DNA of 64,000 nucleotides from Enterococcus pallens ATCC BAA-351 (GTDB lineage Bacteria; Bacillota; Bacilli; Lactobacillales; Enterococcaceae): the NCBI RefSeq assembly GCF_000407485.1, contig NZ_ASWD01000002.1, forward strand, positions 806,001-870,000, in the 5' to 3' direction. This document shows positions 9,243 through 39,842 of this stretch, piece by piece. A program made the position numbers and the translations under genes. The notes beneath the pieces were generated by a model. It had not been told where the DNA came from. It made no database searches and saw only the letters and a program-made list of their open reading frames with translations. Every line of letters begins with the position of its first letter. The first letter of the stretch is position 1.

Positions 9243-9259
9243 GGGGACTCACCTTCTCT

Positions 9260-10003: not shown

Positions 10004-10179
10004 CGTGTCCTTCCTCTTTCTGTTGAAGTTTTTCGTTTGATATTATTCGGTTGCGGCCTTCTCAACAGCAACCGAGTCATTTTTTCCTGCAAGTCCTGTT
10101 GGCTTCGCATCAGCGAGAACAGTAGATAGCTTTGAACCAGTACAATCAGGCCTAGTACCAGTAATAATAGATAGACCAC
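10000..10179 (-). CDS. One-TM mini-protein (locus A)
   Basis: 59 residues starting at GTG 10179 (VVYLLLLVLGLIVLVQSYLL) after GAGGCGAGG. A single N-terminal TM helix is followed by a short coiled-coil stretch (SQQDLQEKM) and a basic tail. It is equivalent to the 62-63 residue proteins at 27536-27727 and 50763-50951, which confirms that it is real although short. TGA overlaps the ATG of the pseudo-recombinase gene (ATGA), so the two are probably coupled and may act together at the membrane. No known family is recognised. Confidence 0.7.
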   Translation of the reverse strand: MVYLLLLVLGLIVLVQSYLLFSLMRSQQDLQEKMTRLLLRRPQPNNIKRKTSTERGRTR

Positions 10180-10200
10180 GTTCTGCCTCGCCTCTTTCGT

Positions 10201-13200
10201 TTACTTGGTTTTGATTTTTCCTAGGTCGTTCTTTTTGTAGTCCCAACTGTAGGGTTGTGGGCCATCTTGATTCAGCTTAGGTTTTAGATAAATAGTAATA
10301 AAATATTCTTCGTCGTTGTAAAGCTCGTCCCGCTTGAAGATTAAAGAAGCTTTATTGCTATTTGCTTCAGTTTTCCCTGTGTGGCTTGCACCATTTGGGT
10401 CTGCATTTCCTAAAGTTAGATAGTTGCCTACTATTTCATAATATTCAGGGATAATTAGCTTCAACTCCAATTCATCCAACGGATCATCCATGTGGTCTGC
10501 ATTCACAGCAATCGTTTCAAAGGCTGAATTATCGGCATTCTTACCTGATGAAATCCTTACCTGTCGTAACTGATCTGCATTTTCTATTGTTGTTCCAGAC
10601 ACTCCATCGTAATCATTGGTCGCCATTCTTAAGTAGCCTTCTTCAGGTACGACCAACTGATTGGAATCACCTACAATCACCTGGCGTACATGCAAGAGTA
10701 TATCGCCTGTGAGTGTGACATCTAGTCCTCCAAGAGTAGGCTTTGTCGTTCCGGCCTGATGATTGCCATCCACGGTTCCATCCCATTCATAACGAATCAT
10801 AGGTGCTCCATCCGGTGGACTGGAATCGATTAAGCCAGGTTGAGTAGCTGATTTAATCGCATTAAGATTGACTACTTGTAGTTTGGAAGAATTGGTTGTC
10901 TTATCTGCTAATACAGGCAGCTCAGTATCTGTTTCATGAGTAGAATCATAATAGTCATACACACGAACATTGCCTCGATCTAATACATCGGCTGCAGTAT
11001 GTCCACTTCTTAACCGAAATGGCAAAGAATAATCATCTGCATAATAGACTACACCATTGGTATCAGCAGGCGTTACCTCTGGATTAGTTTTACTATTTGG
11101 CACTGTATTTTTTGTGGTAACAAAAACCCAGACCCGATTCCTGATTTCAATGCCGTTTTCAGGTTTATAGATCACATCGACTGGATAAGGTTTTGCGACC
11201 TTTGCGTTTTGAAGTGCTTCTAGCTGATCCACATTTATCACAACTTTGCTTGACAACTTATTAGTATCTGTTCCATCTTCATCTATAGTTGCATTCGCTG
11301 TATTCCAAGCCATTGTTTTTGCCAACTCTTTGAATTTGTCAGCATCAGGCATAGAAGTATTTAGTTTATTCAAAGGAATGTGGAAGTTTTGTGCGTCCAG
11401 CATATACTCGTCCTCTACCTCTGTTTGTGGTGTCTTACTATTCACCCATCGGGATGTTGCAGCAGGTTGATTTTGTGTGTCTGTTACAAAATACGTCACA
11501 AGCTGTGGTCCAGTTTTTGAAGCATCAAATCCTAAACTTTTCCATTGAATTGATGCGGAAATATCCTTAGGGTTTCGATTAATACGTTTTTGAAGCCATT
11601 CTTCTCTTTCAGCAGATGTTCCAGCAATGGAAGAATCATTGCTATCAAAATAATCGTAAACTTTGATTGCAGAAGAGTCTGCTATAGTCCCATTTTTTGA
11701 GCCGGTAATTAGCCAGCGATCTAAGGTATTCCATTCTCTATAATTAGTTGCAACAGGATTAGTAACAGCTTTATCAGTAATGTCTACTAAAATATTATTA
11801 TCACTGCTTATTATTGGTGCATAATCATCATTGATATTCAATGTACCTATAAATCCACAATTACTTGAAGGATTTCCAGCTGGATTAAGATAGATACCTT
11901 GGGGACCTTCATCGATAGTGTATGTTTGATTAGGAAAGATATCAAAATCGTTTGTAATCCCCCCTATAAAAATTTTGTTATCTTGGCCTTCTAATGCATA
12001 ATCAGCGGATATCGATCCGTCCACCTCGAAAGCTCTCAAACTTCTAATATCCAGATCATCAGCGCTACCTGTTATTCCTTCAACCGTACCATTTACGAAG
12101 AAATGACTTCCTATGGTTGGATTAGCTGGATAATAATTGGAAGCAAATTCTCCTGTTAGACTAGTAGTTGTTCCATAGTATGAGAAAGTCCCATCTGTAT
12201 TCTTAAAAAAATTTATATTTGTTGCTCGAGGATACACTTTAATTATTTCATCTGTATAAGTATTTAAATCCACACGAATTAATTGAGTTTCTGTTTGATT
12301 TTCCACAGTGAAATAAATATATTCACTATTACACATATTCTTTATCACTTTATAAGAATGGTTATTTCCAGTTACAATATCACTTTTTATTTGTTCCACA
12401 GTCCTATGCTGGTATACACGTTCCTTCAAAATTGGATTTACCATCCCTGGATTTATGTCTCCCCTTTCTTGAACGTTAACATTCGCATCAAAGACTTGGA
12501 AGGTCTGCTGGTTTTTCCGTATTCCATGTTGATATCCAGCATAATTTATCAGTCCAAAAATATAATTGTCTAACTTATATATATCTGACCCGCTCACTGA
12601 ACAGACATTAGCTCCTTGCGACTCATCAAGATTTAGTTCTTCATACATCAATAAAGATTCTAAGGTATATTGATAGGTGGATTCACTGTTAAATCCTCCT
12701 GTTTCCCATCCGCTATTATTTATGGCTCCTATTGAAATTCTTTTTCTGTAAACACCTGGAGAAGCAGGATGTCCTGGATAAGATCTACCAATGATTAGTG
12801 CATCATTCGAATAATTTGAAAATTGATCAATGATAATATGAGTATCAATTTTAAGTGCAGTATTAGGATTCCCCGTAACAACCCCTACCGGATATTGGTA
12901 CCGGTCAATTGTTACGGGGGTTGATGTATCATTTACTGTGTACCTAAACCAAGTATTATTGAAAGTTGTTACTAAGAAAGTGTTGTTGCTCCTGTTATAT
13001 ATTTTAGTGCCAACTCGAAGATTCACATTATGTCTTGTGCCAATACTATTTGATGCTAGTTCGTTCCCCTCTTTATCATAAACAGCTGTTCTAGTAATTC
13101 CACCAACACCGCCACCAGCTATTTGAAAGAGCACAAAATAATTACCATTTTCTGTTTCCTCGATACTTTGAATGTTTACACCTATATCAGCACCATTCGA

Positions 13201-13530
13201 AGCTCGTTCACTACCATAGGCACTAACGTTTTCCTTATTTAAAACTGGAACCTTATCACTTCCTTGAACATAGCCATCAAATTGCGATCCTAAATCCCTA
13301 AGCACCTGCTCTTCCAACTGTGTTGCATCTAAAGGAACTGTAAACTTCGTGCCGCCACTTCCTAATTCAATTGTACTAGCGGGATGGGCAGACACATGCT
13401 TTTTTTCCTGAAAAAAACTTACTAAGAAAACAATGCTTGATAAACAAACTCCTAGAATACAAATCAGTCCTAAGCACTTTTTCCAGCTTCTATTGTTTGA
13501 CAATTTTTGATTAAATTTAACCTTTCTCAT
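10201..13530 (-). CDS. Large surface protein of locus A, unique N-terminal region
   Basis: 1,109 residues. A signal or anchor segment (CLGLICILGVCLSSIVFLVS) lies near residue 25. The first 600 residues are repeated beta-rich segments with NGNYFVLFQI and NNTFLVTT motifs that could form a propeller. Two segments of the type NVRVYDYYDS are followed by the C-terminal module HVRQVIVGDSNQLVVPEEGYL to PQPYSWDYKKNDLGK. That module is shared with the large proteins of loci B and C, whereas the N-terminal two thirds are unrelated to theirs. There is no LPXTG. The shared end may dock it on the fibre; the variable part may bind a surface or host ligand. It follows the minor exported-protein gene across a hairpin leader. 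Confidence 0.7.
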   Translation of the reverse strand: MRKVKFNQKLSNNRSWKKCLGLICILGVCLSSIVFLVSFFQEKKHVSAHPASTIELGSGGTKFTVPLDATQLEEQVLRDLGSQFDGYVQGSDKVPVLNKENVSAYGSERASNGADIGVNIQSIEETENGNYFVLFQIAGGGVGGITRTAVYDKEGNELASNSIGTRHNVNLRVGTKIYNRSNNTFLVTTFNNTWFRYTVNDTSTPVTIDRYQYPVGVVTGNPNTALKIDTHIIIDQFSNYSNDALIIGRSYPGHPASPGVYRKRISIGAINNSGWETGGFNSESTYQYTLESLLMYEELNLDESQGANVCSVSGSDIYKLDNYIFGLINYAGYQHGIRKNQQTFQVFDANVNVQERGDINPGMVNPILKERVYQHRTVEQIKSDIVTGNNHSYKVIKNMCNSEYIYFTVENQTETQLIRVDLNTYTDEIIKVYPRATNINFFKNTDGTFSYYGTTTSLTGEFASNYYPANPTIGSHFFVNGTVEGITGSADDLDIRSLRAFEVDGSISADYALEGQDNKIFIGGITNDFDIFPNQTYTIDEGPQGIYLNPAGNPSSNCGFIGTLNINDDYAPIISSDNNILVDITDKAVTNPVATNYREWNTLDRWLITGSKNGTIADSSAIKVYDYFDSNDSSIAGTSAEREEWLQKRINRNPKDISASIQWKSLGFDASKTGPQLVTYFVTDTQNQPAATSRWVNSKTPQTEVEDEYMLDAQNFHIPLNKLNTSMPDADKFKELAKTMAWNTANATIDEDGTDTNKLSSKVVINVDQLEALQNAKVAKPYPVDVIYKPENGIEIRNRVWVFVTTKNTVPNSKTNPEVTPADTNGVVYYADDYSLPFRLRSGHTAADVLDRGNVRVYDYYDSTHETDTELPVLADKTTNSSKLQVVNLNAIKSATQPGLIDSSPPDGAPMIRYEWDGTVDGNHQAGTTKPTLGGLDVTLTGDILLHVRQVIVGDSNQLVVPEEGYLRMATNDYDGVSGTTIENADQLRQVRISSGKNADNSAFETIAVNADHMDDPLDELELKLIIPEYYEIVGNYLTLGNADPNGASHTGKTEANSNKASLIFKRDELYNDEEYFITIYLKPKLNQDGPQPYSWDYKKNDLGKIKTK

Positions 13531-13577
13531 CCCGATTCCCTTCTTTCAATACTCATCAAATCAATGTTCTACTTACT

Positions 13578-13642
13578 AAAACACTCACCTCATGAGTGTT
13601 GTTTCTTTTTATAAAGAGACACAGCGGGGAAACTGCATCTCT
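13578..13642 (-). promoter_or_regulatory. Two leader hairpins before the large surface-protein gene (locus A)
   Basis: AACACTCA/TGAGTGTT (13580-13600) with T-rich flanks resembles a terminator or attenuator. A second stem from AGAGACACAG to CTGCATCTCT (13615-13642) includes the stop of the upstream gene. Both recur at the same place in loci B and C. They probably reduce or regulate read-through into the adhesin gene. Confidence 0.6.
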
Positions 13643-14288
13643 AATTTTCTGTTTTTCCCGTTAATGCTTCATCTACTATCTTTAAAGGATCTCCATTCAC
13701 ACTAGGAACAACACCTTGCCACCAAGCGTCACGATATACATGTTTCGCACAGTTAATGGTTTCAACCTTTAGTGAGATGGTGAATGTGGCATCATGATAC
13801 TGATCACTTATTTGAGCGGATAATCTGATTTTTTCAAAAAGCGCTGTTGTTGGCTTACCAGGTTCTAGTGCCTCCTTAATATAGTAGTAATACCCATCTT
13901 CTCCATCTACCCATTCAGTCGCATCCAGTCCCTCTAAAATCAAATCTGTTCCAAGCTTTAAGGACAATATCTGATAATTATCAGGATCTCCAGCAATGCT
14001 CGTTCGGACCTCTGGCAAAATCATCACTCGTACGAATTGATTGATTGTACCGGTATTTTTAATCTTTACAGTCTTTGTAACCGAAGTATTCTTTTTTATC
14101 TCTTGAATACCTTCGTTGAAAACTTCGTCCAGCTCGGTTTCTACCTGCCCGATTAAAAAATCATTCTCTTTCTTGTCCTCTGCCGTCATTGCTGCATACA
14201 CTAAATAACTTCCACCAAGCAATAGGAGGAGACAACTAACTGCAATGAAAAGATAGAACTTTCGACGATTTTTTCTTCGCTGCTTCAT
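13641..14288 (-). CDS. Minor SipW-type exported protein, 215 aa (locus A)
   Basis: The basic N-terminus KQRRKNRRK, a hydrophobic core (FIAVSCLLLLLGGSYLVYAA) and MTAEDKKENDFLIGQ directly after it form the SipW-type signal pattern seen in TasA/CalY/BsaA proteins. The mature part has VKIKNTGTINQFVRVM, matching the IxNTGxxxxFVRV strand of the larger fibre subunit, and ends without an anchor. It is probably processed by the SipW-like peptidase of this locus and incorporated as a minor pilin-like subunit or assembly factor. The ATG follows AGGAGGAGCAAG, 12 bp after the preceding gene. Confidence 0.75.
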   Translation of the reverse strand: MKQRRKNRRKFYLFIAVSCLLLLLGGSYLVYAAMTAEDKKENDFLIGQVETELDEVFNEGIQEIKKNTSVTKTVKIKNTGTINQFVRVMILPEVRTSIAGDPDNYQILSLKLGTDLILEGLDATEWVDGEDGYYYYIKEALEPGKPTTALFEKIRLSAQISDQYHDATFTISLKVETINCAKHVYRDAWWQGVVPSVNGDPLKIVDEALTGKTEN

Positions 14289-14300
14289 CTTGCTCCTCCT

Positions 14301-15149
14301 TTACTTGACTAGTTTATCTTTGTATAACTGATAGGCATGATCATCGGTAGGTTGAATTCCCCAGTCACTGATTAGTTCGTTGGTCAGGTCATGGGCATTC
14401 ATCTCAGGAACTAATTTGTACAAGGCTCCTTTGTGTTGATTCTCATAAGCTGCACTTAAAGTAACACTATCCAACAAATTAGGCGTAACTTCCGTTGGTT
14501 GAAGAACCTCTGAATAATAGAAATATCCCTTCTCGTAATACCAGTAATTGGTGTCACTAGCAGTTGGAGGCATACTTTGATCAAAGACTTTTCCAGCTTC
14601 AAAGTTCAATTCAATAGACGGTAAAGGATTTGCTCTTGTTCCTTTATAAGGATACGTCTGATCTATCAAGGCAACGTTTGCTTTGTAATGCGTATTGGCC
14701 TTCGTTCCATACGTGTTGCCAACAACCCAGGTATTGGTTTTCTTGACATCAATCGTTGTTGCACTGGGTGTGCCATAGACTTTCAAATCCCCATTGCCAT
14801 CACCAATACCATGATTGTCAGTGACATCTGTTTCAAAACCAACGAAGAATTCTTTTAGAGAAATGCGCACAATTGCTGGTGTTTCTCCCGTGTTACGCAC
14901 TCGAACGTTTTTCTCCTTCGTGGTTCCTGGTGACCAGTGAAAGACTTGGCCGAAGTCTTCTTCTACAATCGCTGACAACTTTCGATGATTGGCATCCGTC
15001 CGGTTGACCCGTTCATCGGCAGAGGTAATCCACGCATAGGTACTGCCTACGATTAATAACAAGCTCAACACTAGAGAGAAGCAGGCGAACAGTCCTTTAC
15101 TGCGGACAAAGGTCTGAAATAGATGTTTTCGCTTTTCCTTCTGGTTCAT
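14301..15149 (-). CDS. SipW-type exported protein, 282 aa (locus A)
   Basis: The hydrophobic segment LFACFSLVLSLLLIVGSTYA is followed by WITSADERVNRTDAN, the WITS/AxDxRxNR signature of SipW-dependent signal peptides in these loci. The mature protein contains VRVRNTGETPAIVRISLKEF, the same NTG strand as the other subunits, and YYEKGYFYYSEVL. I place the start at ATG 15149, which overlaps the LPXTG gene stop (ATGA) and follows GGAGGAGCAGGG; an in-frame ATG 30 bases upstream lies inside the LPXTG gene. The likely role is a second structural or accessory component of the extracellular fibre. Confidence 0.75.
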   Translation of the reverse strand: MNQKEKRKHLFQTFVRSKGLFACFSLVLSLLLIVGSTYAWITSADERVNRTDANHRKLSAIVEEDFGQVFHWSPGTTKEKNVRVRNTGETPAIVRISLKEFFVGFETDVTDNHGIGDGNGDLKVYGTPSATTIDVKKTNTWVVGNTYGTKANTHYKANVALIDQTYPYKGTRANPLPSIELNFEAGKVFDQSMPPTASDTNYWYYEKGYFYYSEVLQPTEVTPNLLDSVTLSAAYENQHKGALYKLVPEMNAHDLTNELISDWGIQPTDDHAYQLYKDKLVK

Positions 15150-15916
15150 CCCTGCTCCTCCTCTCGACGTTTTTTCCATAGAAACAATGCAATCATTACC
15201 AGTAATAAACCAGTCAGAAACATGTAGACCACTTGTTCACCTGTTTGCGGCAATAGCTTCCGACTAGAAGGGTTTCCTTGTCCAGTGGACGGCAAATTGC
15301 CTGATCCTCCAGACGAACTGGGGATTGTGGGTTCAGATGGTTGCGTTGGTGTCGTAGGTTCCGTTGGCTTCGTCGGCTGTGTGGGTTCTGTTGGTTGATC
15401 TTTCGTTCCCACAAAGGTCCACAGAAAATCTAACGTGCTTTTTGTTTTCAAATTCTCATTGGTCAAATCAGCATCTATTACAAAGGTTGCTTGCATGATT
15501 TTGTCTGTTCCATAGGTACAAACACCTAATTCCAGAGGTGTCTTACTCCAATCTCGACTGGCATCCCCCAGTAATGGACCATGATAAATTTCTTTGCCAT
15601 CTAAAACCAAGGTCATGGTAATATGATTCTTCCAGTCCACCGACCCGCTGGAGTCAATCTCTTCGACTAACATTCCTAAGGAAAATGGTTCTTCCAGATC
15701 CAAGCTGCGAATCGTAATCTCTTTTTCAAAGACATCTCCGGGGAGAATATCTACTAAATCAATGTAGTACTCTCCCTCAGAGGTGGCATACATCCCATCG
15801 GAATCGCCGATCACCATGCCGGGGGGAAGTGCTTTTGCCGCTTGCACAGTGGACATGCCGCAAAAGAAGAAACAAAAACACAGGATACTACTAAATAAAA
15901 TCCTAAGTTTTCTCAA
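15146..15916 (-). CDS. LPXTG wall-anchored protein of the fibre locus A
   Basis: 256 residues: a Sec signal peptide (ILFSSILCFCFFFCGMSTVQA), an ectodomain with GEYYIDLVDILPGDVFEKEI and TIRSLDLEEPFSLG, a Pro-Thr-rich spacer of PTEPTQPTKPT repeats, LPQTG, a TM helix and KKRREEEQG. A housekeeping sortase, not encoded here, should link it to peptidoglycan. The ectodomain resembles the SipW-exported neighbours but uses an ordinary signal peptide, so it may be the base that tethers the fibre to the wall. The start codon appears to be TTG 15916 after GGGAGAGGTGACAGAGG. Confidence 0.85.
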   Translation of the reverse strand: MRKLRILFSSILCFCFFFCGMSTVQAAKALPPGMVIGDSDGMYATSEGEYYIDLVDILPGDVFEKEITIRSLDLEEPFSLGMLVEEIDSSGSVDWKNHITMTLVLDGKEIYHGPLLGDASRDWSKTPLELGVCTYGTDKIMQATFVIDADLTNENLKTKSTLDFLWTFVGTKDQPTEPTQPTKPTEPTTPTQPSEPTIPSSSGGSGNLPSTGQGNPSSRKLLPQTGEQVVYMFLTGLLLVMIALFLWKKRREEEQG

Positions 15917-15957
15917 CCTCTGTCACCTCTCCCTTCTTTTCATGGCGTGCTCATAGC

Positions 15958-17274
15958 CTAGATGCCTGCTTTAAGTTTGTTTACAATTGCTAATGTATCG
16001 CCTGTTGGTGTTGAACCGCCACCTAATTCCCAACCTGCTGAATCAGTTAGTGCATCCGCGTTGGCTTGAACGGCTTCCATTTTCACTACTAAATCGTAAG
16101 AAGCATTCGTATACTCTGTACCCATTGCACTTTCAAAGACTAGTTTCTCCAATAGATTCTTGGTTGTTTCACCTGATTTCACTGGTACAGTGTAGTAGAA
16201 CCAACCATCATCCTTGTTGTATACCCACTTGTCACTACCTAGAGTAGCGATGTCTGTAACATCTGCACTGTAGCCGATCTTGATCTCACTCTTACCTAAA
16301 CCTTTGGTATCTGCTTGAACGTCTTTTTTACCTGTTGCTGTTGGGATTTGATTCGTTACTGTTGCTGGTGTAACCGCTGGTAGGTCTGTAGCGGCAGCAT
16401 AGCCTAATCCACCGAAGGTATAGTCATAGTCAACACTGTAACGGACACCGTCTGTTCCCAGCAACGCGCGACCGGTTGCTGCACCGTCTTCATCTGGTAG
16501 AGATGATTTTGCCCAGTTGACAGTGGTATTCTTGTACCCATTTTCGTAGTAACCGTATTTCACATTGGTCAAGGCAAAGTTCCAGTCTTTGGCATCCAAT
16601 TTGCTGTTTTCATTGGTTACTGAGATATCGAAAGTCATGGATTGGTATTTATTTTTACTTGCATCGTAACCAGTATCGCCAGGATTTTTTCCATTGTTGT
16701 CCGTATGAGTAAAGTATTCATGCATCATTTTTGCTTCATAACTAATTTTTTCAGCACCAGTAACTGGGTCAACCGTCTTTCCACCCTTAACCAATAATTT
16801 TGCATTGTCATCTGCTGGCGTTGCCAACCCAGTAATTTGTCCAGCTGGCACTTGGACAAAGCCATCTTTATAGGTTTGGTCTCCATTGAAATTAATTGGC
16901 ATATGTTTGTTCAATCCTGAATCATTCGCTACATAGGTGTATTTTGCACCCGTAACTGAACTTGGATCATACTTTTCTGCACCTAATTTGTCCAAATGTT
17001 TCAACACTTCTTCATAAGAAACTCGAACAAATACACTCGCTGTACCAGTATTCGATACGGCAACTTCTTTAGTTGCTTCAGTTCCTGGTACCAATGGTTT
17101 TGGTTCCCAGGTTTCCTTTACTGTCACGCTGTTGTCACTTACTGCTGCAGATTCCGCCCGGTTAATCCGTTGATCCTGCGCAGTAATCCAGGCGAATGTC
17201 CCGGAGATGGCTGCGATTAACGCCAAAGCCGCTGCGGCAGCCATCAGCTTTTTCTTTTTACTATTCTTCTTCAT
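15958..17274 (-). CDS. Major SipW-dependent fibre subunit, BsaA/TasA-like (locus A)
   Basis: 438 residues from ATG 17274. The lysine-rich start (KKNSKKKKL), alanine-rich hydrophobic core and ISGTFAWITAQDQRINRAES form a SipW-dependent signal peptide. The mature part has WEPKPLVPGTEATKEVAVSN and NTGTASVFVRVSYEEVLKHL, the CalY/TasA-like strand, then WFYYTVPVKSGETTKNLLEK and YDLVVKMEAVQA. There is no wall anchor or TM tail. By analogy with BsaA of Clostridium perfringens it is expected to polymerise outside the cell; the fibre role is inferred. Its own strong SD (TAGGAGG) and an upstream hairpin suggest higher expression than its neighbours. It is very similar to the locus C copy. Confidence 0.85.
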   Translation of the reverse strand: MKKNSKKKKLMAAAAALALIAAISGTFAWITAQDQRINRAESAAVSDNSVTVKETWEPKPLVPGTEATKEVAVSNTGTASVFVRVSYEEVLKHLDKLGAEKYDPSSVTGAKYTYVANDSGLNKHMPINFNGDQTYKDGFVQVPAGQITGLATPADDNAKLLVKGGKTVDPVTGAEKISYEAKMMHEYFTHTDNNGKNPGDTGYDASKNKYQSMTFDISVTNENSKLDAKDWNFALTNVKYGYYENGYKNTTVNWAKSSLPDEDGAATGRALLGTDGVRYSVDYDYTFGGLGYAAATDLPAVTPATVTNQIPTATGKKDVQADTKGLGKSEIKIGYSADVTDIATLGSDKWVYNKDDGWFYYTVPVKSGETTKNLLEKLVFESAMGTEYTNASYDLVVKMEAVQANADALTDSAGWELGGGSTPTGDTLAIVNKLKAGI

Positions 17275-17317
17275 TCCTTTTTTCCTCCTATACATCCTTT
17301 TTTCTTTTTATATAAAT

Positions 17318-17333
17318 ACTTGTACAAACAAGT
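17318..17333 (-). promoter_or_regulatory. Hairpin between sipW-like and fibre genes (locus A)
   Basis: ACTTG and CAAGT pair around TTTGTA directly after the sipW-like stop, followed by ATTTATATAAA. The same arrangement with different sequence occurs in loci B and C, so the structure is conserved rather than the sequence. It could stabilise a processed fibre mRNA or act as a weak terminator. Confidence 0.5.
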
Positions 17334-17335
17334 AG

Positions 17336-18277
17336 TTATACCCCTCTTGGATAATTCCTTTGTTTGGTGGGTCTTCTCACTGGTTCTGGCTGTAGAAAAT
17401 ATGCCTTCAAAACTAGGAAGAAGCCAAAGGTAGACAAGACACATACCAGACATAACCACAGATTTTCCTGTACAAAGTTCAAGACACTCCCCATTTTAGG
17501 AATGACAAAGGTGACTTTTCCGTAAACTCTGTCAGCAAAGATTGGTGGATCCTTACTGTTATTGGCGTCCCCTTTGGTAACGATGTAGTCACCTTCTTGT
17601 CCGTTTAATTCAGTTAATCGCTCCACCATTCTATGGGTCAGATAACGATCGCCTTCCCCAACCTGAAAAGTGACAATATCTCCTTCTTTGACTTGACTGC
17701 CATCGGTCATCTTCACTAACACAATATCTCCCGCATAGAATCCTTTCGACGGAGAATCCGGCTGTGGTGCCATCGAATCTGTCAAAACCTGGTAAAAGCG
17801 ATAGCCAAAAATAGCCGCATCGGACTTTTCACTAAAGGCAAACATCAGCGAACTCAACAAAATCCCTATCGTCAACGTGTAAAAGAACAGGTTATACACG
17901 AATAAGAAAATCTTGCGATTCGTAGATTTCTTGGCTTCTTGTAGTGGTGGCGCTCCTTGTTGGACAGGTCTAGGACGTTGTGGTCGCGCTCTTGGCGGTA
18001 TTGATTGATTCTGATCATAAGGTCGCGACCGTTCATATCTTTCCGATACCCTTCGAGAAGGATAGGAACCTCGGACGGGTGGAACCTCTCGACGAGGATA
18101 GCAGCCTTCTCGTCCTCGATTAACTGGTCGTTGCGGTGGATAGGATCTTCGATCGTCATACTCATCTTCGTAATAGTCATATCTTCTTGGTGGTCGGTGG
18201 CTCGAAGGGGCCCTGTCACGATACGGTGGTTCATCAAATTCATAGTCATGATCCCGGTATTCACGTTGTCTCGACAT
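17336..18277 (-). CDS. sipW: SipW-type signal peptidase I with disordered N-terminal tail (locus A)
   Basis: 313 residues from ATG 18277. The core (about residue 122 onward) has a TM helix (FVYNLFFYTLTIGILLSSLM), catalytic Ser168 in VLTDSMAP, DIVTFQVGEG, and His215 in LTHRMVER in place of the usual Lys. This is the Ser-His ER/archaeal type typical of SipW. A second TM helix (LWLCLVCVLSTFGFFLVL) ends the protein. The first 120 residues are an unusual Arg/Tyr/Pro-rich low-complexity tail, predicted cytoplasmic and probably interacting with a partner. It should cleave the SipW-type signals of the three downstream proteins. The start lies 13 bp after the glucosaminidase stop. Confidence 0.85.
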   Translation of the reverse strand: MSRQREYRDHDYEFDEPPYRDRAPSSHRPPRRYDYYEDEYDDRRSYPPQRPVNRGREGCYPRREVPPVRGSYPSRRVSERYERSRPYDQNQSIPPRARPQRPRPVQQGAPPLQEAKKSTNRKIFLFVYNLFFYTLTIGILLSSLMFAFSEKSDAAIFGYRFYQVLTDSMAPQPDSPSKGFYAGDIVLVKMTDGSQVKEGDIVTFQVGEGDRYLTHRMVERLTELNGQEGDYIVTKGDANNSKDPPIFADRVYGKVTFVIPKMGSVLNFVQENLWLCLVCVLSTFGFFLVLKAYFLQPEPVRRPTKQRNYPRGV

Positions 18278-18290
18278 ATCTCCCCTTCTT

Positions 18291-19376
18291 TCATTGGACA
18301 CTTCGATTGCCAGATAGCTGCTTTGCCGGTCTTTGGGCAGTCGGTGGAAGCATGACTGCTGTTTGTGTTGTTTCACTAACAATAATTGGCTGCTTCCTAT
18401 TCTCATTGGAAGCTTTCACTGTTTGTTTTTCTTCCGAATTGTTTTCTGGTTTAATTGGATCATTGGCTGATTGTTCATGCTTCACTTCAGTATTTTTCGC
18501 TGGATCGTTATCGTAGGTTGTTAAATCGTATGCATCAATTAAAGCAATCAATTTCTTGTCGTAGGATGTATCTGTCGCGTATTTTCCAGTTAAAGCCTTT
18601 GCCGCTTCTTGATACGTTGCAGCAGTTGATTTCCACGTTCCTTGGTAGAAACCATCATTGCCTGAGAGACCATTTTTCAAAAGGGTTGCGTAATCTTTTA
18701 AGGATTCTTTATAGCTTGGATACTGTCGAAAAGCCGATTGAATCGTATACAACTCTCCATTCCCTTTATCTTCTTGTGTTTTGAAAGACACCTGCTTGCC
18801 TTGATAACTGCCTTTGATCCCGAACAGATTATGATAAGGTGGCTGAGCTAACTGACTGTTGCCTGATCCCGTTTCTAGTATCGCTTGAGCAATCATGACC
18901 GAAGCATATAAATCTTCCTGCCAAGCAATTGCTTGCGCATCTTTCCCTATGACTTGAATGAAGATTTCGGTTGTCTGATTTTTACTTACCGAGAATTGGT
19001 AGTTTTCTTCTACTTTTTTAGTAGGTAGTGCTGTTTGAATCTTAGCTTGAGCTGTTTCTAGAACAGATGATGAAGAGTCGAGTGTCTCTTCCGTTCTTTC
19101 TTTTTGTTCATTTGAATTTGAGGTAGTTGACTCTTGTGTTTCATCTCTCTTGCTTTCTCCCATTAAAGAAGTCTCTGAATATATCGTTGACGCGATCGAT
19201 TCCTGGGCTGCGCTGCTGCTAGTGCTATTCATCATAATTGATGCTGTTTTTTCCTGTCGCAAAGTTGAAACAGTGGATTCCTTTACCTCTGCCAATACGA
19301 TTTGCATGGATGCCTGGTAAATAGTAAATAAGAAAACACTCATCCCAAAACCAACCAATAAGACTTTACCTTTCAT
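18291..19376 (-). CDS. Secreted glucosaminidase (GH73/FlgJ-like) of locus A
   Basis: 361 residues. An N-terminal hydrophobic segment (VLLVGFGMSVFLFTIYQ) precedes a Ser/Thr/Glu-rich linker and a glucosaminidase domain with SVMIAQAILETGSGNSQLA (Glu in ILETG is the expected acid), NLFGIKGSYQGK, FRQYPSYKESLKDYA and TDTSYDKKL. A low-complexity tail follows. It probably opens peptidoglycan to let the fibre pass or remodels the wall. Unlike the B and C copies it has no lipobox Cys, so it may be secreted or anchored by its signal helix instead of a lipid. Its start overlaps the 104-aa gene by 11 bases. Confidence 0.85.
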   Translation of the reverse strand: MKGKVLLVGFGMSVFLFTIYQASMQIVLAEVKESTVSTLRQEKTASIMMNSTSSSAAQESIASTIYSETSLMGESKRDETQESTTSNSNEQKERTEETLDSSSSVLETAQAKIQTALPTKKVEENYQFSVSKNQTTEIFIQVIGKDAQAIAWQEDLYASVMIAQAILETGSGNSQLAQPPYHNLFGIKGSYQGKQVSFKTQEDKGNGELYTIQSAFRQYPSYKESLKDYATLLKNGLSGNDGFYQGTWKSTAATYQEAAKALTGKYATDTSYDKKLIALIDAYDLTTYDNDPAKNTEVKHEQSANDPIKPENNSEEKQTVKASNENRKQPIIVSETTQTAVMLPPTAQRPAKQLSGNRSVQ

Positions 19377-19680
19377 TGGATTTTAGCCTTTCCTGAGGAT
19401 GTGATCGCGGCTTTCCTCTTGGCCGCCTTGTTTTAGCTGCCGCTTGTTGCAGTCTTAAAAGAACACTATGATAATGCAGCGCGGTTATTCGTAAATAAAC
19501 AGCCAATAGCATTAATAGCAATAGTAAGAAAAGCTGACTAACCGTCACTACCTCTTGAAAATCTGTAAAATAGAAGAAAATTCCTAATACAAGAACTCCT
19601 AACAGCACCACCAAGGAAAACAACCAGTAAACCCAATACCAAAAGGTGTACCATTCAATTTTTTCTTGCAATGTTTTCAT
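19366..19680 (-). CDS. Small two-TM protein with basic tail (locus A)
   Basis: 104 residues: an N-terminal amphipathic segment (MKTLQEKIEWYTFWYWVYWL), two TM helices (FSLVVLLGVLVLGIFFYF and LFLLLLLMLLAVYLRITA), and an Arg/Lys/Pro-rich cytoplasmic tail. It is nearly identical in loci B and C up to about residue 80, which makes it the best conserved small protein of the system. No known family is recognised. It overlaps the signal peptidase stop (ATGA) and the glucosaminidase start, so the three are translationally coupled and possibly form one membrane complex. Confidence 0.75.
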   Translation of the reverse strand: MKTLQEKIEWYTFWYWVYWLFSLVVLLGVLVLGIFFYFTDFQEVVTVSQLFLLLLLMLLAVYLRITALHYHSVLLRLQQAAAKTRRPRGKPRSHPQERLKSNER

Positions 19681-20084
19681 TTATTACTGTTCCCCTCTTG
19701 GACGATACCTAAAATTTGTTTTTCTGAGACTAATCCGAAAATTCGGCTGTCTTTAGAAATGGTGCGATTGTCTCCCAAAACAAAGTAATAGCCTTCTGGA
19801 ATTGGTTCCTTTGAGATACTCTCCCAAACAAAGTCCTCTGTTCGATAGGCGAAAGTGTCGGCTATTACTTCATGGTTAACGAGTAACTCACCAGCTTGAT
19901 AATCAATTCGTTCCCCTGGCAAACCAATTACTCGTTTTAAATACAACTCATCAGGGGAATCTGGTGGATGCAACACCACCACATCGAAACGTTTCGGCTT
20001 GCGATGGGCTTTCACTTGGACAATCTCTTGTTCCCAATAGGTGGGATTCATGGATTCCCCACTGACAAAATATCTTGGATACAA
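19677..20084 (-). CDS. Type I signal peptidase, Ser-Lys type (locus A)
   Basis: From TTG 20084 the product is 135 residues with catalytic Ser11 (VSGESMNPT), Lys50 (LYLKRVIGLPGERID), and the box GDNRTISKDSR. This is a complete S26A domain. The N-terminal membrane anchor (GIFVICYFVFLVAF) lies upstream in the same frame, but no ATG, GTG or TTG precedes it. The frame is open back to the TGA that ends the 380-aa gene at 20181-20183. The true protein must therefore start at a non-canonical codon or arise by TGA read-through. The last bases overlap the next gene (ATGA). Confidence 0.8.
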   Translation of the reverse strand: MYPRYFVSGESMNPTYWEQEIVQVKAHRKPKRFDVVVLHPPDSPDELYLKRVIGLPGERIDYQAGELLVNHEVIADTFAYRTEDFVWESISKEPIPEGYYFVLGDNRTISKDSRIFGLVSEKQILGIVQEGNSNK

Positions 20085-20183
20085 CCAGTAATAGGTCCGG
20101 AATGCAACAAGAAATACGAAGTAACAAATAACAAATATGCCTGCCAGCTTTGAAGCTATTGACCACTGAAATCTCCGACCTCA
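20085..20183 (-). other. In-frame TGA junction between the 380-aa gene and the signal peptidase (locus A)
   Basis: The codons after the TGA read GRRFQWSIASKLAGIFVICY and run without a stop into the peptidase. A strong AGGAGG lies five bases before the TGA, within the codons for QEVG. The equivalent junctions in B and C are also in frame, with different linker lengths that are all multiples of three. Confidence 0.7.
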
Positions 20184-21344
20184 GCCAACCTCCTGAGCTT
20201 CTTTGACTGGCGCATCCTGTTGTTCTCGAACCATTCGTTCCAGCAAAGCACTTTCTCCTTGAAGCAAATCAAAATAGGCTGCCTTACTTAACAAATTGTC
20301 ATAATCCATCTTCATTAGTTTGACGTAGGGTTTTCTGAACCACGGTCTGGCATGGACCTTGGCTCGTGATTCAATCACCTGGCACTCATACAGTACAAAG
20401 TGAATATCTCTCGCCGAAAGATTCGCTTTGATTTGTTTGACTTGATCTCGTTCGTAAACTAGCTTATTGCCGGTAACGGTCATTTTTTCGGTTTTATTCA
20501 CCAGCTCACCATTGAGATTCCACATCTGTTCCAAAAATCTTGCCTTCTGTAGCAGATAGGTATACTCCCGCAAGCTGATCTTGATTCGTTTATCCCAATC
20601 ACTTTCTTCTTTGCTCTCTTGATTGAAGTATTGAATCCCGCTGTAAAGCATGGAGAGCTCCAGCTTCTCGATTACCATTTCCAGCTTTTGATTGACCGCT
20701 CGTAACCTAGCCTTACTTTGACTTTCTTGTTTGACTTCTTCCTGTTGGACTCGGTTAACTGATACTTCTGCTTCCTTGACCTGTTCTGCTACTTCCTTAA
20801 CTGGAATAGTCTCAACCTTTTCTGTTACTTCCTTCGACTTAGGTGGTACATCTGACAAATGCTGCCCTGCCAATTCAAGCAATAACTGTTCTGCTCGTTC
20901 TAAAGCTTCTTCGGCAGACAAAGGAAACTGTTGTGTCAGGCTCTCCTCTAAATGAATCGCAAAGGGAAACCCGACTTCGCGAAAAGTTAATGGAATAAAG
21001 TCAAATCGATAGACCCGTCGGCCATACTTGGGTTCTTCCGTTTGGGCCTTGATCCAAGCAAATTGTGGAAAGAACTGATGCAGCGACTGCCAAAAACCGG
21101 TCCAATCAAAATAGTCGGTTGGCAACAACAACTCCACATGATAGCTGCTGTTCATCAAACGAAACAACTGCTCAAAGTGCTGATAAATCTTTTTCCGCTG
21201 GTCCTCGTTTAAGGTGCCATGCGGTGCATATAAATATTCACATGCCCGTTCAATTTCTTCTAACAGCGGCTGTGAAACCAACACTTCTTGCATAGCAGGA
21301 GCTGGTGTTGGATAGAGGGCGAGCTGATTCTGTGCTTGTTTCAC
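20181..21344 (-). CDS. Conserved protein of unknown function, about 388 aa (locus A)
   Basis: I do not recognise the family. All three copies start with YPTPAP, have an N-terminal region with EEIERACEYLYAPHG and FDWTGFWQSLHQFFPQFAW, a variable Glu-rich linker, and a highly conserved C-terminal half (KARLRAVNQKLEMVIEKLEL, then KMTVTGNKLVYERDQVKQIK and HARPWFRKPYVKLMKMDYDN). There is no signal peptide or TM helix, so it is cytoplasmic unless fused by read-through to the membrane peptidase that follows in frame. The start is probably GTG 21344. It may be a scaffold or ATP-independent assembly factor; this is inference from context only. Confidence 0.7.
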   Translation of the reverse strand: MKQAQNQLALYPTPAPAMQEVLVSQPLLEEIERACEYLYAPHGTLNEDQRKKIYQHFEQLFRLMNSSYHVELLLPTDYFDWTGFWQSLHQFFPQFAWIKAQTEEPKYGRRVYRFDFIPLTFREVGFPFAIHLEESLTQQFPLSAEEALERAEQLLLELAGQHLSDVPPKSKEVTEKVETIPVKEVAEQVKEAEVSVNRVQQEEVKQESQSKARLRAVNQKLEMVIEKLELSMLYSGIQYFNQESKEESDWDKRIKISLREYTYLLQKARFLEQMWNLNGELVNKTEKMTVTGNKLVYERDQVKQIKANLSARDIHFVLYECQVIESRAKVHARPWFRKPYVKLMKMDYDNLLSKAAYFDLLQGESALLERMVREQQDAPVKEAQEVG

Positions 21345-21362
21345 CAAACCTCATCCCCTCTT

Positions 21363-22310
21363 CTATTCGTCATCCAACAAGTTGTCGCTCGTTGCTAACA
21401 AACGCACAAAAAATTGGGTAGTTTCTTCTTGAACTGAACGCAGACGCTTGCGGTAATTCCTGATTTCCTGCTTCATCACGCGTAATTCCAGTGAAGCATC
21501 GTGAATCACTTGATGGGCTTCCTGTTCAGCTTGGCTGCGAATTCCTTTAGCTTCGTATTCTGCTCGTTCCAAAATCGCTCGTTCCTGTTTTTTGGTTTCA
21601 ATCAGGATCGTCGCCAATTCTGCTTTCATGTCTTCATTTTCCTTCTGGGTTTGTCTCAAGGTGTCAATTTGGCGTTGGGCCTGAGCCAAGGCTTCACTTT
21701 GATGAGTTTGATCCTTTTGAAGGTCGTTTTTCAATTGAGACAGTTGCTCCTTCAATTCATTGATTTGTTGGTCCTTTGCTGCCAGCTGCACTTGGATTTT
21801 CTGTTGATTTTCTGTTTGCAGGGCTTGGAGCTCGTGTTTCTTTTCTTCCTGCAAGGCTTCTATTTGTTGTTCTGCTTTAGTTTGATACTCCTGGAATGCT
21901 TGATCTTTTTCAGTCAGGGTAGTCGCCATCCCTGTCATTTCAGTTTGCTTGACCTCCAACTGGTGCTTCAGCTGAGCCACTGTTTCTTCCAAACGCTCGA
22001 TCTCTTGTTGCAGTGGCGACTCTTGTCGTACAGGTTGCTCTTCCTCGAAAGCGGGTGAGTGCTTTGGTTCAGGCTCACCACCATAACGAGTGTCATAACG
22101 CTCCTCTGCAGAAGGTTCTGCTCGTCTGCGTGAGCGCCGATCTCCACGGTCATAGTCCCGATAATTTTCTACTGGCCGCTCATATTCTTCTTCGGGATAC
22201 GAGTCATATCCGTAATCATCTTCGTACCCTTCGTCATATTCGTCGTAATAGTAGTCGTCTTGATTCGTTTCTTGATAGCTATCCTTCTTCTGTTTGCCAA
22301 ATCCAAACAT
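21363..22310 (-). CDS. DivIVA-like coiled-coil protein with acidic Tyr-rich N-terminus (locus A)
   Basis: 315 residues from ATG 22310 after GAGGAGG. It starts MFGFGKQKK, followed by an acidic tyrosine-rich region (DDYYYDEYDEGYEDDYGYDS), a charged linker, then about 200 residues of heptad-repeat coiled coil. The C-terminus (ILERAEYEAKGIRSQAEQEA) matches the DivIVA/GpsB-like ending. It is cytoplasmic, with no membrane helix. As the first gene downstream of the switch it is the first to be transcribed after inversion. The acidic tail could pair with the basic tails of the SipW-like and two-TM proteins and place the machine at a cell site; that is inference. Confidence 0.75.
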   Translation of the reverse strand: MFGFGKQKKDSYQETNQDDYYYDEYDEGYEDDYGYDSYPEEEYERPVENYRDYDRGDRRSRRRAEPSAEERYDTRYGGEPEPKHSPAFEEEQPVRQESPLQQEIERLEETVAQLKHQLEVKQTEMTGMATTLTEKDQAFQEYQTKAEQQIEALQEEKKHELQALQTENQQKIQVQLAAKDQQINELKEQLSQLKNDLQKDQTHQSEALAQAQRQIDTLRQTQKENEDMKAELATILIETKKQERAILERAEYEAKGIRSQAEQEAHQVIHDASLELRVMKQEIRNYRKRLRSVQEETTQFFVRLLATSDNLLDDE

Positions 22311-22406
22311 GCCGCTTCCTCCTCTATCCACTAACTCCTAAATACTGCTTTTTGATAATTCTGCTTGTTTCATCTATACTTTTAGCAAGCACAAAAAAGC
22401 TGCTTT

Positions 22407-22431
22407 TTTCATAGTCTTTGGAAGACTATGA
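22407..22431 (+). repeat. Left inverted repeat of invertible segment A
   Basis: A 25-bp sequence containing CATAGTCTTTGGAAGACTAT. Its reverse complement matches 24012-24036 at 24 of 25 positions. Each copy is itself a dyad (CATAGTCTT around a 3-bp centre), as expected of a tyrosine-recombinase core site. It lies 97 bp upstream of the DivIVA-like start. Confidence 0.85.
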
Positions 22432-22459
22432 AACCTCCCTAAAGGCTTATCAGACCAAC

Positions 22460-22483
22460 AAAAAAAGACCGTCCTTTGACGGT
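22460..22483 (-). terminator. Recombinase terminator inside segment A
   Basis: ACCGTC/GACGGT stem with loop CTTT and, on the minus strand, seven T. It lies between the recombinase stop and the left repeat and should stop recombinase transcripts from entering the fibre genes in the present orientation. Confidence 0.75.
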
Positions 22484-22493
22484 TGTTGACGGT
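22476..22493. repeat. Paired TTGACGGT repeats, candidate recombinase arm sites (A, left)
   Basis: Two TTGACGGT copies with a 10-bp period, one helical turn. A third copy occurs at 23826-23833 near the other end. Recombinases with an AP2-like N-terminus, such as Tn916 Int, bind arm repeats of this kind. Confidence 0.55.
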
Positions 22494-22606
22494 ATAAAAA
22501 ATGTATGTACTCTTTTTCATCACTTCAATTAAACAATTTCTCCGGAAAATAAAACAACCAGTCACACAAAGACCGGAAAATCCTTGAACCATTACCTCAC
22601 CTTCGA

Positions 22607-22620
22607 AGAAAGCGCTTAAC
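22607..22620. promoter_or_regulatory. cre-like AGCGCTT motif in segment A
   Basis: AGAAAGCGCTTAAC is close to a CcpA cre box. Equivalent AGCGCTT motifs, each followed by GAAAAAG after 5-6 bases, lie 60-85 bp downstream of the recombinase stops in B and C. Function unproven. Confidence 0.4.
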
Positions 22621-22677
22621 TAGAAAAAGATAAAAAAAGCCTCCCCAATGAAGAATATCGTCTTTTTTGAAAACGGT

Positions 22678-23784
22678 TTAGCTAATTGCCTTCTCCATTT
22701 GACCAACTACCTGGAACCGTTGTTCCATGAGAGAACCTGCGTATGTATCTAAGGTCATTTGCGTGGAGCTATGTCCCATTAAGGCGCTGACACTCATGAT
22801 ATCCCCACGACTTTCTAAGCAGCGAGTCGCAAAGGTATGTCTCAATTGATGAAAATGGATTGTCGACAATTTAGCTTTTTCACGGATCTTATGAAAATGA
22901 TAGGTCAACAGTCTTGGCTCTACCGGTTTCTCATGATTGGTGAGAACAAATTTGCCCTTTGACCGCTGTTTCTGTTTCAACAACACTTGCTTTAGCAGTT
23001 GACTCATTGGAATCAAGCGCGTGGAAGAAGCTGTTTTTGAACTGGTATAAACTAACTCAGATTTCTTTCCATTGAATACCCCGATGATACGCTGCACCGT
23101 TGAATGAACATGAATCAAGTTGTTTTCAAAATCAAGATCTCCCCAAGTAAGAGCAGAAATCTCTCCGATTCTCAAACCAGCATGAAGAGCCAGCAACGTT
23201 GCGATTCCGCGCCCTTTCTTTTCCGACAAAGCCAGCGTTTCCAAGCCTTTTTGTTCCTGTTTTGTAAGGGCCTGATTCTTATTCTTCACCAGTTTAGGCA
23301 GCTTTACTGAAGCAAATGGATTCTCATTAATCATTTTTTTTCGGATGGCTAGATTGATGCATTGTTTGGTAATGCGGAAGACCGCATGAATTGTTGAAGG
23401 CTTCAATTGGCGTTTTTCTAGGTCTCTTAATAAGCTTTCTGCCGCAGCTTCATCTAGTTCATTCAGACTATATTCCCCAAGTACTCCTAGTACATAATGT
23501 TCCAATTTATGCTCATAATTCGCATAGGTGGACTGCTTCACATTGGCTTGAACCTCCTGAAGCCACAGGTAGGCCCACTCGTTAAAACTGATTGCAGCAG
23601 TTCCCTGATTATTTTGGATAAATTGATAATGCAGCTTTAAGGGGTACAGCTTTTCACGGACTTCTTTTAAAGTCTTGCCGTACACTGATCCGTACATAGT
23701 TTTGCCTTCTGCGTTTTTGCCTTTGGAATAGCGGCCCTCCCAGCGTTTGTCTTTGCGGCGATAGATATTTTCACCTCTGCGCAT
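22678..23784 (-). CDS. Tyrosine recombinase, AP2-type N-terminus (switch A)
   Basis: 368 residues from ATG 23784 (MRRGENIYRRKDKRWEGRY), an AP2-like arm-binding domain as in Tn916-family integrases, then a SAM-like core-binding domain and a catalytic domain. Catalytic residues: Arg in HAGLRIGEISAL, His-x-x-Arg in FHQLRHTFATR, His in MGHSSTQMT, and Tyr in LDTYAG. All are present, so it should be active. It lies wholly inside inverted repeats with no excisionase, relaxase or cargo, which argues for an inversion enzyme rather than a mobile-element integrase. A longer in-frame start exists at 23811. A minus-strand TATAAT lies at 23797-23802, just before the chosen start. Confidence 0.85.
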   Translation of the reverse strand: MRRGENIYRRKDKRWEGRYSKGKNAEGKTMYGSVYGKTLKEVREKLYPLKLHYQFIQNNQGTAAISFNEWAYLWLQEVQANVKQSTYANYEHKLEHYVLGVLGEYSLNELDEAAAESLLRDLEKRQLKPSTIHAVFRITKQCINLAIRKKMINENPFASVKLPKLVKNKNQALTKQEQKGLETLALSEKKGRGIATLLALHAGLRIGEISALTWGDLDFENNLIHVHSTVQRIIGVFNGKKSELVYTSSKTASSTRLIPMSQLLKQVLLKQKQRSKGKFVLTNHEKPVEPRLLTYHFHKIREKAKLSTIHFHQLRHTFATRCLESRGDIMSVSALMGHSSTQMTLDTYAGSLMEQRFQVVGQMEKAIS

Positions 23785-23927
23785 GTCTTCACTTCTTTCT
23801 ATTATATTCATTAAGGACGTGATTTTTGACGGTGAATAGATTTTCCGTCTATTTCAAGGGATTCCTACTCTGTTAACCAGAGCAAGAAGTTCCAAAGAAA
23901 TAATTTTAATTATTTTTATAAAACATA

Positions 23928-23956
23928 TTGCGTATTTCTACCTCCTAATCTATAAT
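23928..23956 (+). promoter_or_regulatory. Outward promoter of invertible segment A
   Basis: TTGCGT (23928-23933), 17-bp spacer, TATAAT (23951-23956), preceded by the AT-rich tract ATTTTAATTATTTTTAT that is also present before the locus B promoter and looks like an UP element. It faces the right repeat and away from the fibre genes. Confidence 0.8.
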
Positions 23957-24011
23957 TAGACTAGTTAATAATCCATAAATATAAATAAACATAATTACTT
24001 ACGAAATCATC

Positions 24012-24036
24012 TCATAGTCTTCCAAATACTATGAAA
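24012..24036 (+). repeat. Right inverted repeat of invertible segment A
   Basis: It contains CATAGTCTTCCAAATACTAT and pairs with the left repeat at 22407-22431 with one mismatch (G/T near the centre). Confidence 0.85.
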
Positions 24037-26801: not shown

Positions 26802-27539
26802 CTAGTGTTTAGATTTTTTTATTGCTTGCTTTGGCTCAGCTGCTTCATCACTATCGACTAAGACATTCCATAAAATAATTAACGTGACCACGATGCAAAT
26901 TAAGACTTGAATCCAAATTTGATCAAAGTAAGCCTCCACTAACTTGATACTGAAAATTGCCAGCAGGAAACAAATGACCAGGATAATGGCTAATTGTAGT
27001 TGCTTCAATTCCTGTTGAATCCGATAGACCGTTTCTACTGGCACTCGTTTTCGCTGGGAGATTTGACGAACGGACATCTTCTCTACCAGCAACCAAATGA
27101 CTTCTCGATAGAGTTTGCGAGCTTCTGGTTCTTTACTAAATAATGAATAAGCATCCTTACTGCGGCTTCGTTCTTTGCCTACCTGAACTAAATATGGATG
27201 AAGGATACGATCATTGCGAACAGACCAGCTGAAAATTTGGCGCCATTCTTCCAAACTTAGTTCCGGCATGTTTAAGACTACCAGTTCCATTTCAAGCGCC
27301 TGCAGCTTATCTAAACAAGCCAATAGCTGGCGATAATCTCGCGAAAGAACGTCAAGCGAAGCCACCACGAGTACATCCCCCGCTTTGGAAAAATCCAAAA
27401 GTGCTTGAAATTCACTCACAGGAGAAAACAACGCTTCTGCCTCTTGATGACCATCTGAGAACATCTCATCTACTAAATAGTCTTCTAACAAATCCAATTG
27501 TTGGGTAAACTGATAGCCGCGTGCATAGCCTAGATTCAT
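26802..27539 (-). CDS. Membrane-tethered dead serine-recombinase homologue (locus B)
   Basis: 245 residues. The active-site Ser position reads Tyr (YARGYQFTQQLDLL); DVLSRDYRQLLACLDKL keeps one Arg. The helix-turn-helix (MSVRQISQRKRVPVETVYRI) and both TM helices (LAIILVICFLLAIFSIKLV; VLICIVVTLIILWNVLV) are strongly conserved with A and C. The highest conservation lies in the HTH and membrane part, so these rather than catalysis seem to be under selection. ATG overlaps the mini-protein stop (ATGA-type). Confidence 0.8.
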   Translation of the reverse strand: MNLGYARGYQFTQQLDLLEDYLVDEMFSDGHQEAEALFSPVSEFQALLDFSKAGDVLVVASLDVLSRDYRQLLACLDKLQALEMELVVLNMPELSLEEWRQIFSWSVRNDRILHPYLVQVGKERSRSKDAYSLFSKEPEARKLYREVIWLLVEKMSVRQISQRKRVPVETVYRIQQELKQLQLAIILVICFLLAIFSIKLVEAYFDQIWIQVLICIVVTLIILWNVLVDSDEAAEPKQAIKKSKH

Positions 27540-39565: not shown

Positions 39566-39582
39566 TGGTCTTAAGAAGACCA
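39566..39582 (+). repeat. Left inverted repeat of invertible segment B
   Basis: TGGTCTTAAGAAGACCA, the exact reverse complement of 41184-41200. Each copy is a perfect dyad TGGTCTT/AAGACCA around three bases. Confidence 0.8.
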
Positions 39583-39611
39583 GGATAACTACCATAAAGA
39601 CTGTCAGAACA

Positions 39612-39635
39612 ACAAAAAAGACCGCCCTTGGACGG
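39612..39635 (-). terminator. Recombinase terminator inside segment B
   Basis: On the minus strand GACCGTCC and GGGCGGTC form a stem followed by six T. Confidence 0.75.
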
Positions 39636-39786: not shown

Positions 39787-39842
39787 TGGAAAAAGCAGTA
39801 AAGTTCCTCCCAGGAACTATCAATTATAATTTTGAAAGCGGT

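Follow-up and report, generated by a model that had tools for sequence, protein, structure and literature searches.

The segment at 22407-24036 of the window (the whole stretch of 64,000 nucleotides analysed, from Enterococcus pallens ATCC BAA-351) is very probably a self-contained invertible promoter cassette that switches a SipW/BsaA fibre locus, and one of 26 mostly self-only switches in this genome. The initial annotation had proposed a self-inverting promoter switch in front of such a locus, and this remains the best reading of the segment, here called cassette A, which itself is seen only in the OFF orientation. The conclusion draws on the anatomy of the cassette, its conservation among relatives, the matched centres of its crossover sites, and the in-place inversion of two family members.

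Cassette A and its fibre locus

Cassette A is bounded by two 25-bp inverted repeat arms. The left arm (22407-22431, plus strand) is a core recombination site in which the half-sites CATAGTCT and AGACTATG flank the centre TTGGA; the right arm (24012-24036, minus strand) has the same centre and a single mismatch, located in an outer half-site. The arms are identical at 24 of 25 positions, or at 26 of 28 when extended (22404-22431/24012-24039), and when the two flanks of the recombinase gene are compared without gaps, the top inverted match scores 22 vs. 12 for the best among 20 letter shuffles. The gene between them (22678-23811, minus strand) encodes a 377-aa tyrosine recombinase with a Pfam Phage_integrase match (E=1.3e-24) and the catalytic residues R214, H321, R324, H347, and Y357, in the R..HxxR..H/W..Y pattern of the tyrosine recombinase/Tn916-type integrase family. 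In its first 75 residues, no Pfam arm-binding domain was reported at E 0.01. A promoter, TTGCGT-17-TATAAT (23928-23956, plus strand), with TTGCGT at 23928-23933, 17 nt, and TATAAT at 23951-23956, is directed outward and exits through the right arm. Arms, domain, and promoter bear out the initial description of 24/25-matched inverted repeats around a tyrosine recombinase and an outward promoter, and inverted repeats enclosing a segment with an outward promoter are the arrangement of an inverton.

Several smaller elements lie inside the arms. The hexamer TGACGG, a candidate arm-type site, occurs twice near the left end (22477-22482 and 22487-22492) and once near the right (23827-23832), always on the plus strand. 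Between the recombinase gene and the left arm there is a terminator-like hairpin with a T-run on the recombinase strand (22460-22483, minus), identical in sequence to the hairpin of the near copy L032, which scored -8.5 kcal/mol; it would insulate the fibre operon in the OFF state. Two palindromes, AAGCGCTT at 22610-22617 and AAACGGTT at 22671-22678, the latter at the end of the recombinase gene, are cre-like.

The target operon reads from 22331 down to 8475 (8475-22331, minus strand). It encodes a coiled-coil protein, an S26 peptidase, a glucosaminidase, a SipW-like peptidase, BsaA-family proteins, an LPXTG protein, a 1109-aa protein, a resolvase-domain protein, and a winged-helix regulator; for two more proteins no clear family emerged. 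TIGR04090 (BsaA) exceeds its 60-bit cut-off in two proteins (75.8 and 63.2 bits) and stays below it in a third. The signal peptidase matches sigpep_I_arch with 69.4 bits against a cut-off of 51.85, while the SipW model falls below its own cut-off. BsaA-family proteins together with a SipW-like signal peptidase characterize a SipW/BsaA biofilm-matrix locus, and both are found here; BsaA is dealt with in PMC7395162.

As assembled, the promoter is directed away from the fibre operon, which lies to its left, so the operon reads as OFF. We propose that the encoded recombinase acts on the 25-bp core sites at both ends of the cassette, its N-terminal part probably also binding the internal TGACGG repeats, and that recombination would invert the 1.63-kb segment containing the recombinase's own gene. 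In the present orientation, the recombinase transcript would stop at the hairpin before the left arm, and the promoter, if active, would leave the fibre operon unexpressed. After inversion, the -10 box would lie upstream of the ATG at 22310, probably the first, with about 176 nt between them (55 nt, then the arm of 25 nt and a leader of 96 nt), which would turn the SipW/BsaA locus ON. The initial annotation had the inverted promoter aimed at a 12-gene fibre locus; orientation and position agree with this, and only the gene number does not, since 13 open reading frames are counted.

Two sister cassettes lie in the window, both OFF. Cassette B (39566-41200) has its recombinase at 39843-41030 on the minus strand, its promoter at 41107-41135 on the plus strand, and the centre TAAGA. 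Cassette C (60184-61824) has its recombinase at 60450-61568 on the minus strand and arms matching at 25/25 positions; L016, a near copy of C at another place in the genome, has the inverted orientation relative to it. Two further observations concern the surroundings of the cassettes. Resolvase-N-domain-like proteins adjoin the winged-helix regulator in fibre operons (9260-10003, 26802-27539, and 50023-50766); the 9260-10003 copy, the one tested, matches PF00239 with 24.2 bits (cut-off 23.3), and the E. raffinosus gene at the matching place is annotated as a recombinase family protein. A direct repeat of 107 bp, 96% identical, is located between cassette A and the next locus (24372-24478/25890-25996).

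The cassette family in Enterococcus pallens and its relatives

The genome (5.44 Mb, 13 contigs) contains 26 members of the recombinase family, cassette A included, each keeping a recombinase reading frame of at least 364 aa. Paired end sites are present in 26/26, in 23 by an inverted-repeat score of at least 15 and in L011, L026, and L031 by the half-site scan described below. The first target genes belong to 11 SipW/BsaA fibre loci, five WxL loci, four loci starting with a glucosaminidase/M23 protein, three winged-helix genes, and one each of sortase pilin, LPXTG coiled coil, and other secreted protein; families were assigned via one representative per cluster, the glucosaminidase via tblastn, and, by visual inspection, the M23 part and LPXTG coiled coil. 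Within the 11 fibre loci, SipW and BsaA genes are seen in those of A, B, C, and six others; the locus of L016 was read over its first five genes and that of L026 near the switch only. Eight glucosaminidase-first loci had been labelled SipW fibre in the tree, and no SipW match was found in the five of these eight that were re-checked (L174 being a longer L021). The label is unsupported, so the 18 changes counted on the tree (shuffled 81.2) are an approximate figure.

Across the genus, the recombinase is present in 12/20 genomes at E 1e-60, and relatives occur in 37/105 genomes and 4/17 genera of Enterococcaceae. Family-wide, cassettes stand before SipW/BsaA fibre, WxL, sortase-pilus, accessory-Sec, and regulator genes, among others. 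A cassette on an E. gilvus plasmid precedes a WxL operon, with a repeat score of only 12, and one on an E. raffinosus plasmid precedes a regulator and an accessory-Sec locus. Absence of the repeats from close homologues would have counted against the initial annotation; they are present, with an inverted-repeat score of at least 15 at 108/132 places in this genome, its relatives, and plasmids, and of the 24 lower-scoring places six are cut by contig ends. A score of 15 was reached in one of 20 shuffles by five of 118 cassettes. Seven of 99 genus matches beyond this genome were left unscored (six partial, one with six stops), leaving 92; the distant relative L038 was excluded from inverted-repeat scoring onward, L167-L174, longer copies of loci of this genome, served for gene content only, and L204 stands mostly outside the counts. 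Three other genera gave 84 matches in nine genomes, and 28 of the 30 loci examined among them score at least 15. Two observations stand beside these figures: in L204, on the E. raffinosus HG-5 plasmid, the cassette integrase is split into two frames, other strains having intact copies; and contigs C1, C2, C3, and C6 of this genome carry seven copies of a three-integrase set (frames of 349, 335, and 451 or 441 aa) outside the switch family, which we take to be perhaps a Tn554-like element.

The internal elements were counted at the 108 places with a score of at least 15. TTGn3-n17-TATAAT is found outward on the recombinase 5' side in 80/108 (shuffled mean 1.1, maximum 4), inward on that side in none, and on the left side in 0 and 1. 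The consensus promoter does not stand out clearly in the other genera, where its relaxed form occurs in 8/28 loci (shuffled mean 3.7, maximum 8). TGACGG lies inside the left end in 95/108 and inside the right end in 86/108, with 0.8 expected for each; 146/153 and 124/126 copies, respectively, are on one strand, and the hexamer occurs outside the segment in 7/108. Among the loci of the other genera scoring at least 15, it is found on the left in 26/28 and on the right in 28/28. The strict hexamer was not found on the right of cassette C, nor on the right of B with the ORF bounds used; in B it occurs at 40988-40993, within the longest B reading frame. Tn916-type integrases have arm-type sites, which the TGACGG repeats inside both ends recall.

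In 78/108 (shuffled 7.4) the palindrome AANCGNTT lies in the stretch from the recombinase stop to the left arm, and several examples have two copies spaced by about 60 bp. There is no enrichment outside the segment, and on the inner right side the count is 14/108 (7.3 shuffled). The longer cre consensus TGNAANCGNTNNCA fits 2/108 only. CcpA binds cre sites, which the palindrome resembles, and control by CcpA through these sites may be envisaged. A terminator-like hairpin lies 3' of the recombinase in 42/108 (7 in shuffles), the cassette A sequence being equal to a counted one. The leaders between left arm and target have promoter-like sites in 4/102 (shuffled mean 7.6).

Orientation and inversion

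Orientation was assessed by clustering the first gene past each cassette end. Among 142 cassettes with a recurring target family (18/160 without one left out; at least six are same-locus strain copies), the target lies on the recombinase 3' side, that is OFF, in 140 and on the promoter side in two. The two exceptions, L016 in this genome and L232 in another genus, are in-place inversions with break points at the repeats. Compared with L144 of Enterococcus sp. 665A, the L016 segment is inverted at 87% identity, while the operon flank is collinear at 95% and the other flank at 81% over 88 nt, 63 nt of these past the arm, with no further alignment; the overlap is the 25-nt arm. Compared with cassette C, the L016 segment is inverted at 84% with flanks at 87% and 76% (136 nt). 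In L016, the promoter is followed by the arm and then by the first fibre gene with its ribosome site. The 1.49-kb segment of L232 (genome G076) is inverted at 84-85% relative to genomes G083 and G090; on the left, the flank aligns collinearly at 78%, with the repeat as its overlap with the segment, and on the right side collinear DNA (80-81%) restarts about 845 nt past the arm.

The comparison of orientation among related genomes, proposed with the initial annotation, gave a divided answer: L016 and L232 occur in the second orientation, while cassette A and the A-type clade show no inverted member among the relatives compared and are OFF throughout. With 140/142 OFF and no inverted A-type member, flipping may be rare or regulated. 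Same-locus comparisons of E. raffinosus strains on megaplasmids showed the same orientation and no strain-level flip. Six places on draft contigs (L084, L104, L118, L135, L145, and L146) end at or within a core site, a measure that is partly true by construction because a match cannot extend past a contig end. Such ends could perhaps reflect both orientations being present in the sequenced culture; in one genome checked, the contig-end arm was found twice only, on the same contig, which fits a mixed orientation and proves nothing.

The cassettes resemble Tn916/Tn1549 integrases in enzyme family, in candidate arm-type repeats inside the ends, and in core-type sites. Among solved structures, the nearest to the cassette A enzyme are the "Int protein" chains 6en0/6emy/6emz, which we take to be Tn1549 Int. 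A dead or minimal integrative element, a phage or Tn916-type relic that sits by chance before surface loci, would account for this kinship and for the repeats inside both ends. Tn916/Tn1549 elements, which encode an excision factor, move by excision and integration; unlike in these, the end sites of the cassettes are inverted rather than direct and the segment holds only recombinase and promoter, with no additional ORF of at least 80 aa wholly inside A, B, or C and no cargo or excision gene seen. The catalytic residues are conserved in 160/160 recombinases examined (H321 in 159), the orientation towards the same target gene families is near-constant, and the segments inverted in place speak strongly against a relic. 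We therefore regard it as very improbable.

Another arrangement that the promoter could serve is an either/or toggle, in which it drives the gene on the other side now, a ComK-like regulator where present, and the surface operon after inversion. One protein family (34 members, 31 of them of 235-277 aa) is encoded 185-682 nt past the right arm, in the direction leading away from the cassette. It is found at 32 of the 104 cassettes with an inverted-repeat score of at least 14 and at least 1500 nt on that side, plus two below that score. One member is the 257-aa gene at 41688-42461 (plus strand), which has no family match of its own and which the promoter of cassette B faces in the present orientation. 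In a search of this genome with PF06338 (ComK), the four best places are the promoter-side genes of L034, L012, L028, and L015, all encoding members of this family (E=2e-51 or better); the best match has 25 bits (cut-off 22.3, E=4.5e-5) and is the only one of the four above the curated cut-off. These matches make the family look like a distant ComK. Against a toggle, 72/104 cassettes have no such gene near the arm, and none is listed for cassette A. Several cassettes have a strong hairpin with a T-run (down to -24.8 kcal/mol) separating the arm from the gene. The ComK match is the gene nearest to the arm in L015 only, being a further one in L034 and L028 and beginning, as an open frame, 963 nt past the arm in L012; only 1/18 aligned members matches ComK individually (E=0.043). 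A toggle appears doubtful. Tandem genes of this family occur on the promoter side of L034 (1824-2582 and 2583-3326) and L028 (7176-7436 and 7869-8633, one of only 86 aa).

Probable independence of the switches, and known systems

A half-site motif with a free centre, derived from repeats already seen, was scanned over each side of 115 cassettes. The core site was found on both sides in 50; in the other 65 the both-side motif was not found. Shuffled 600-nt flanks gave it in 2/1320 trials. The 5-bp centre is identical within the pair, in inverted relation, in 50/50, a scan made with no pre-filter for central identity, and between different cassettes in 38/2450; the set includes a few same-locus or near-copy rows. 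In 44 unique cassettes, pre-filtered for central identity, the five centre positions have zero within-pair mismatches, and the half-site positions -9, -7, -4, +7, and +9 mismatch in 20-36%. Tyrosine recombinases need the crossover regions of their two sites to be identical; hence centres that match within pairs yet vary among them are the expected trace of independent self-recombining pairs. The within-pair and between-cassette matches are as expected if each switch recombines with itself. In cassettes with a recognizable core motif the centre is common to the pair and mostly private to the cassette, so most switches should flip only themselves, and such switches would give many independent on/off choices for surface structures. 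Cassette A has its arms and centre in common with L032, and B shares its centre and a 17-nt run with L022; hence neither pair is insulated by sequence. For most switches, insulation is probable.

One master recombinase might instead flip many promoter segments, as Mpi does in Bacteroides fragilis, which would make the recombinase copies redundant. All 26 cassettes of this genome belong to one enzyme family, 14 have the half-site motif in common, and matching centres alone do not exclude a single enzyme acting on all pairs. Against this stand the frame retained in every one of the 26, the 12 different centres among the 14 motif cassettes, and the arms, which have an identical run of at least 15 in only 2/325 pairs of different cassettes. 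A single master enzyme is accordingly improbable, and self-contained cassettes remain the preferred reading.

Hin is a serine recombinase that works with Fis and an enhancer and switches the Salmonella fljBA flagellar operon. It lies inside its own invertible segment according to passages of PMC5903667 and is also treated in PMC9368917. The cassettes resemble Hin/fljBA in placing a recombinase gene and an outward promoter within one small invertible segment that would switch a surface-structure operon. Unlike Hin, they use an integrase-type tyrosine recombinase with arm-like repeats, in up to tens of copies per genome with mostly private centres; with its Phage_integrase domain, cassette A would work like Hin and is not a member of the Hin-type serine recombinases. 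In three other known systems the enzyme is encoded elsewhere: fimB and fimE are located outside the 314-bp fim segment, and recV and the Mpi gene likewise lie outside the segments that their products invert. The E. coli fim switch (FimB/FimE; PMC9993118) is similar in that the promoter in front of a fibre operon is inverted by an enzyme of the tyrosine recombinase class; unlike it, the cassettes form a family with one recombinase each. Parts of PMC5903667 describe Mpi as one serine master recombinase for at least thirteen invertible regions, and the RecV of Clostridioides difficile as acting on several switches. As with Mpi, many invertible promoters across one genome would diversify the surface, here with one recombinase per switch; the invertible segments of C. 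difficile, those of RecV and others, would share with the cassettes inversion by a tyrosine recombinase in a Gram-positive organism, there in front of cell-wall and motility genes.

The initial annotation considered the arrangement not to be a described system. In the openly licensed literature searched, including passages of PMC5903667, PMC11892184, and PMC11868660, nothing equivalent was found, and no tyrosine-recombinase cassette of such design in enterococci. The design is a Hin-like arrangement with an unrelated enzyme class, multiplied and probably insulated. It is possible, and we suggest it tentatively as a broader view, that enterococci and near kin have made of an integrase a modular promoter cassette which inverts itself, and that copies of it, at least 26 per genome, have come to stand in front of many surface loci, kept independent by private centres. 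The result would be a large combinatorial switchboard controlling fibres, pili, and WxL complexes, coupled to sugar status via cre-like operators and often alternating with a ComK-like regulator.

Bacillus-like Firmicutes of one defined gut community were reported in PMC11892184 to have a median of 0 invertons per genome; for the present genome the count appears to be 26, every one with an enzyme of its own. If this is true, clonal populations of these enterococci could differ independently in fibres, pili, and WxL complexes, and the family is a natural set of recombinases paired with their matching sites and varied in crossover centre, in which the insulation of parallel site-specific switches could be tested directly.
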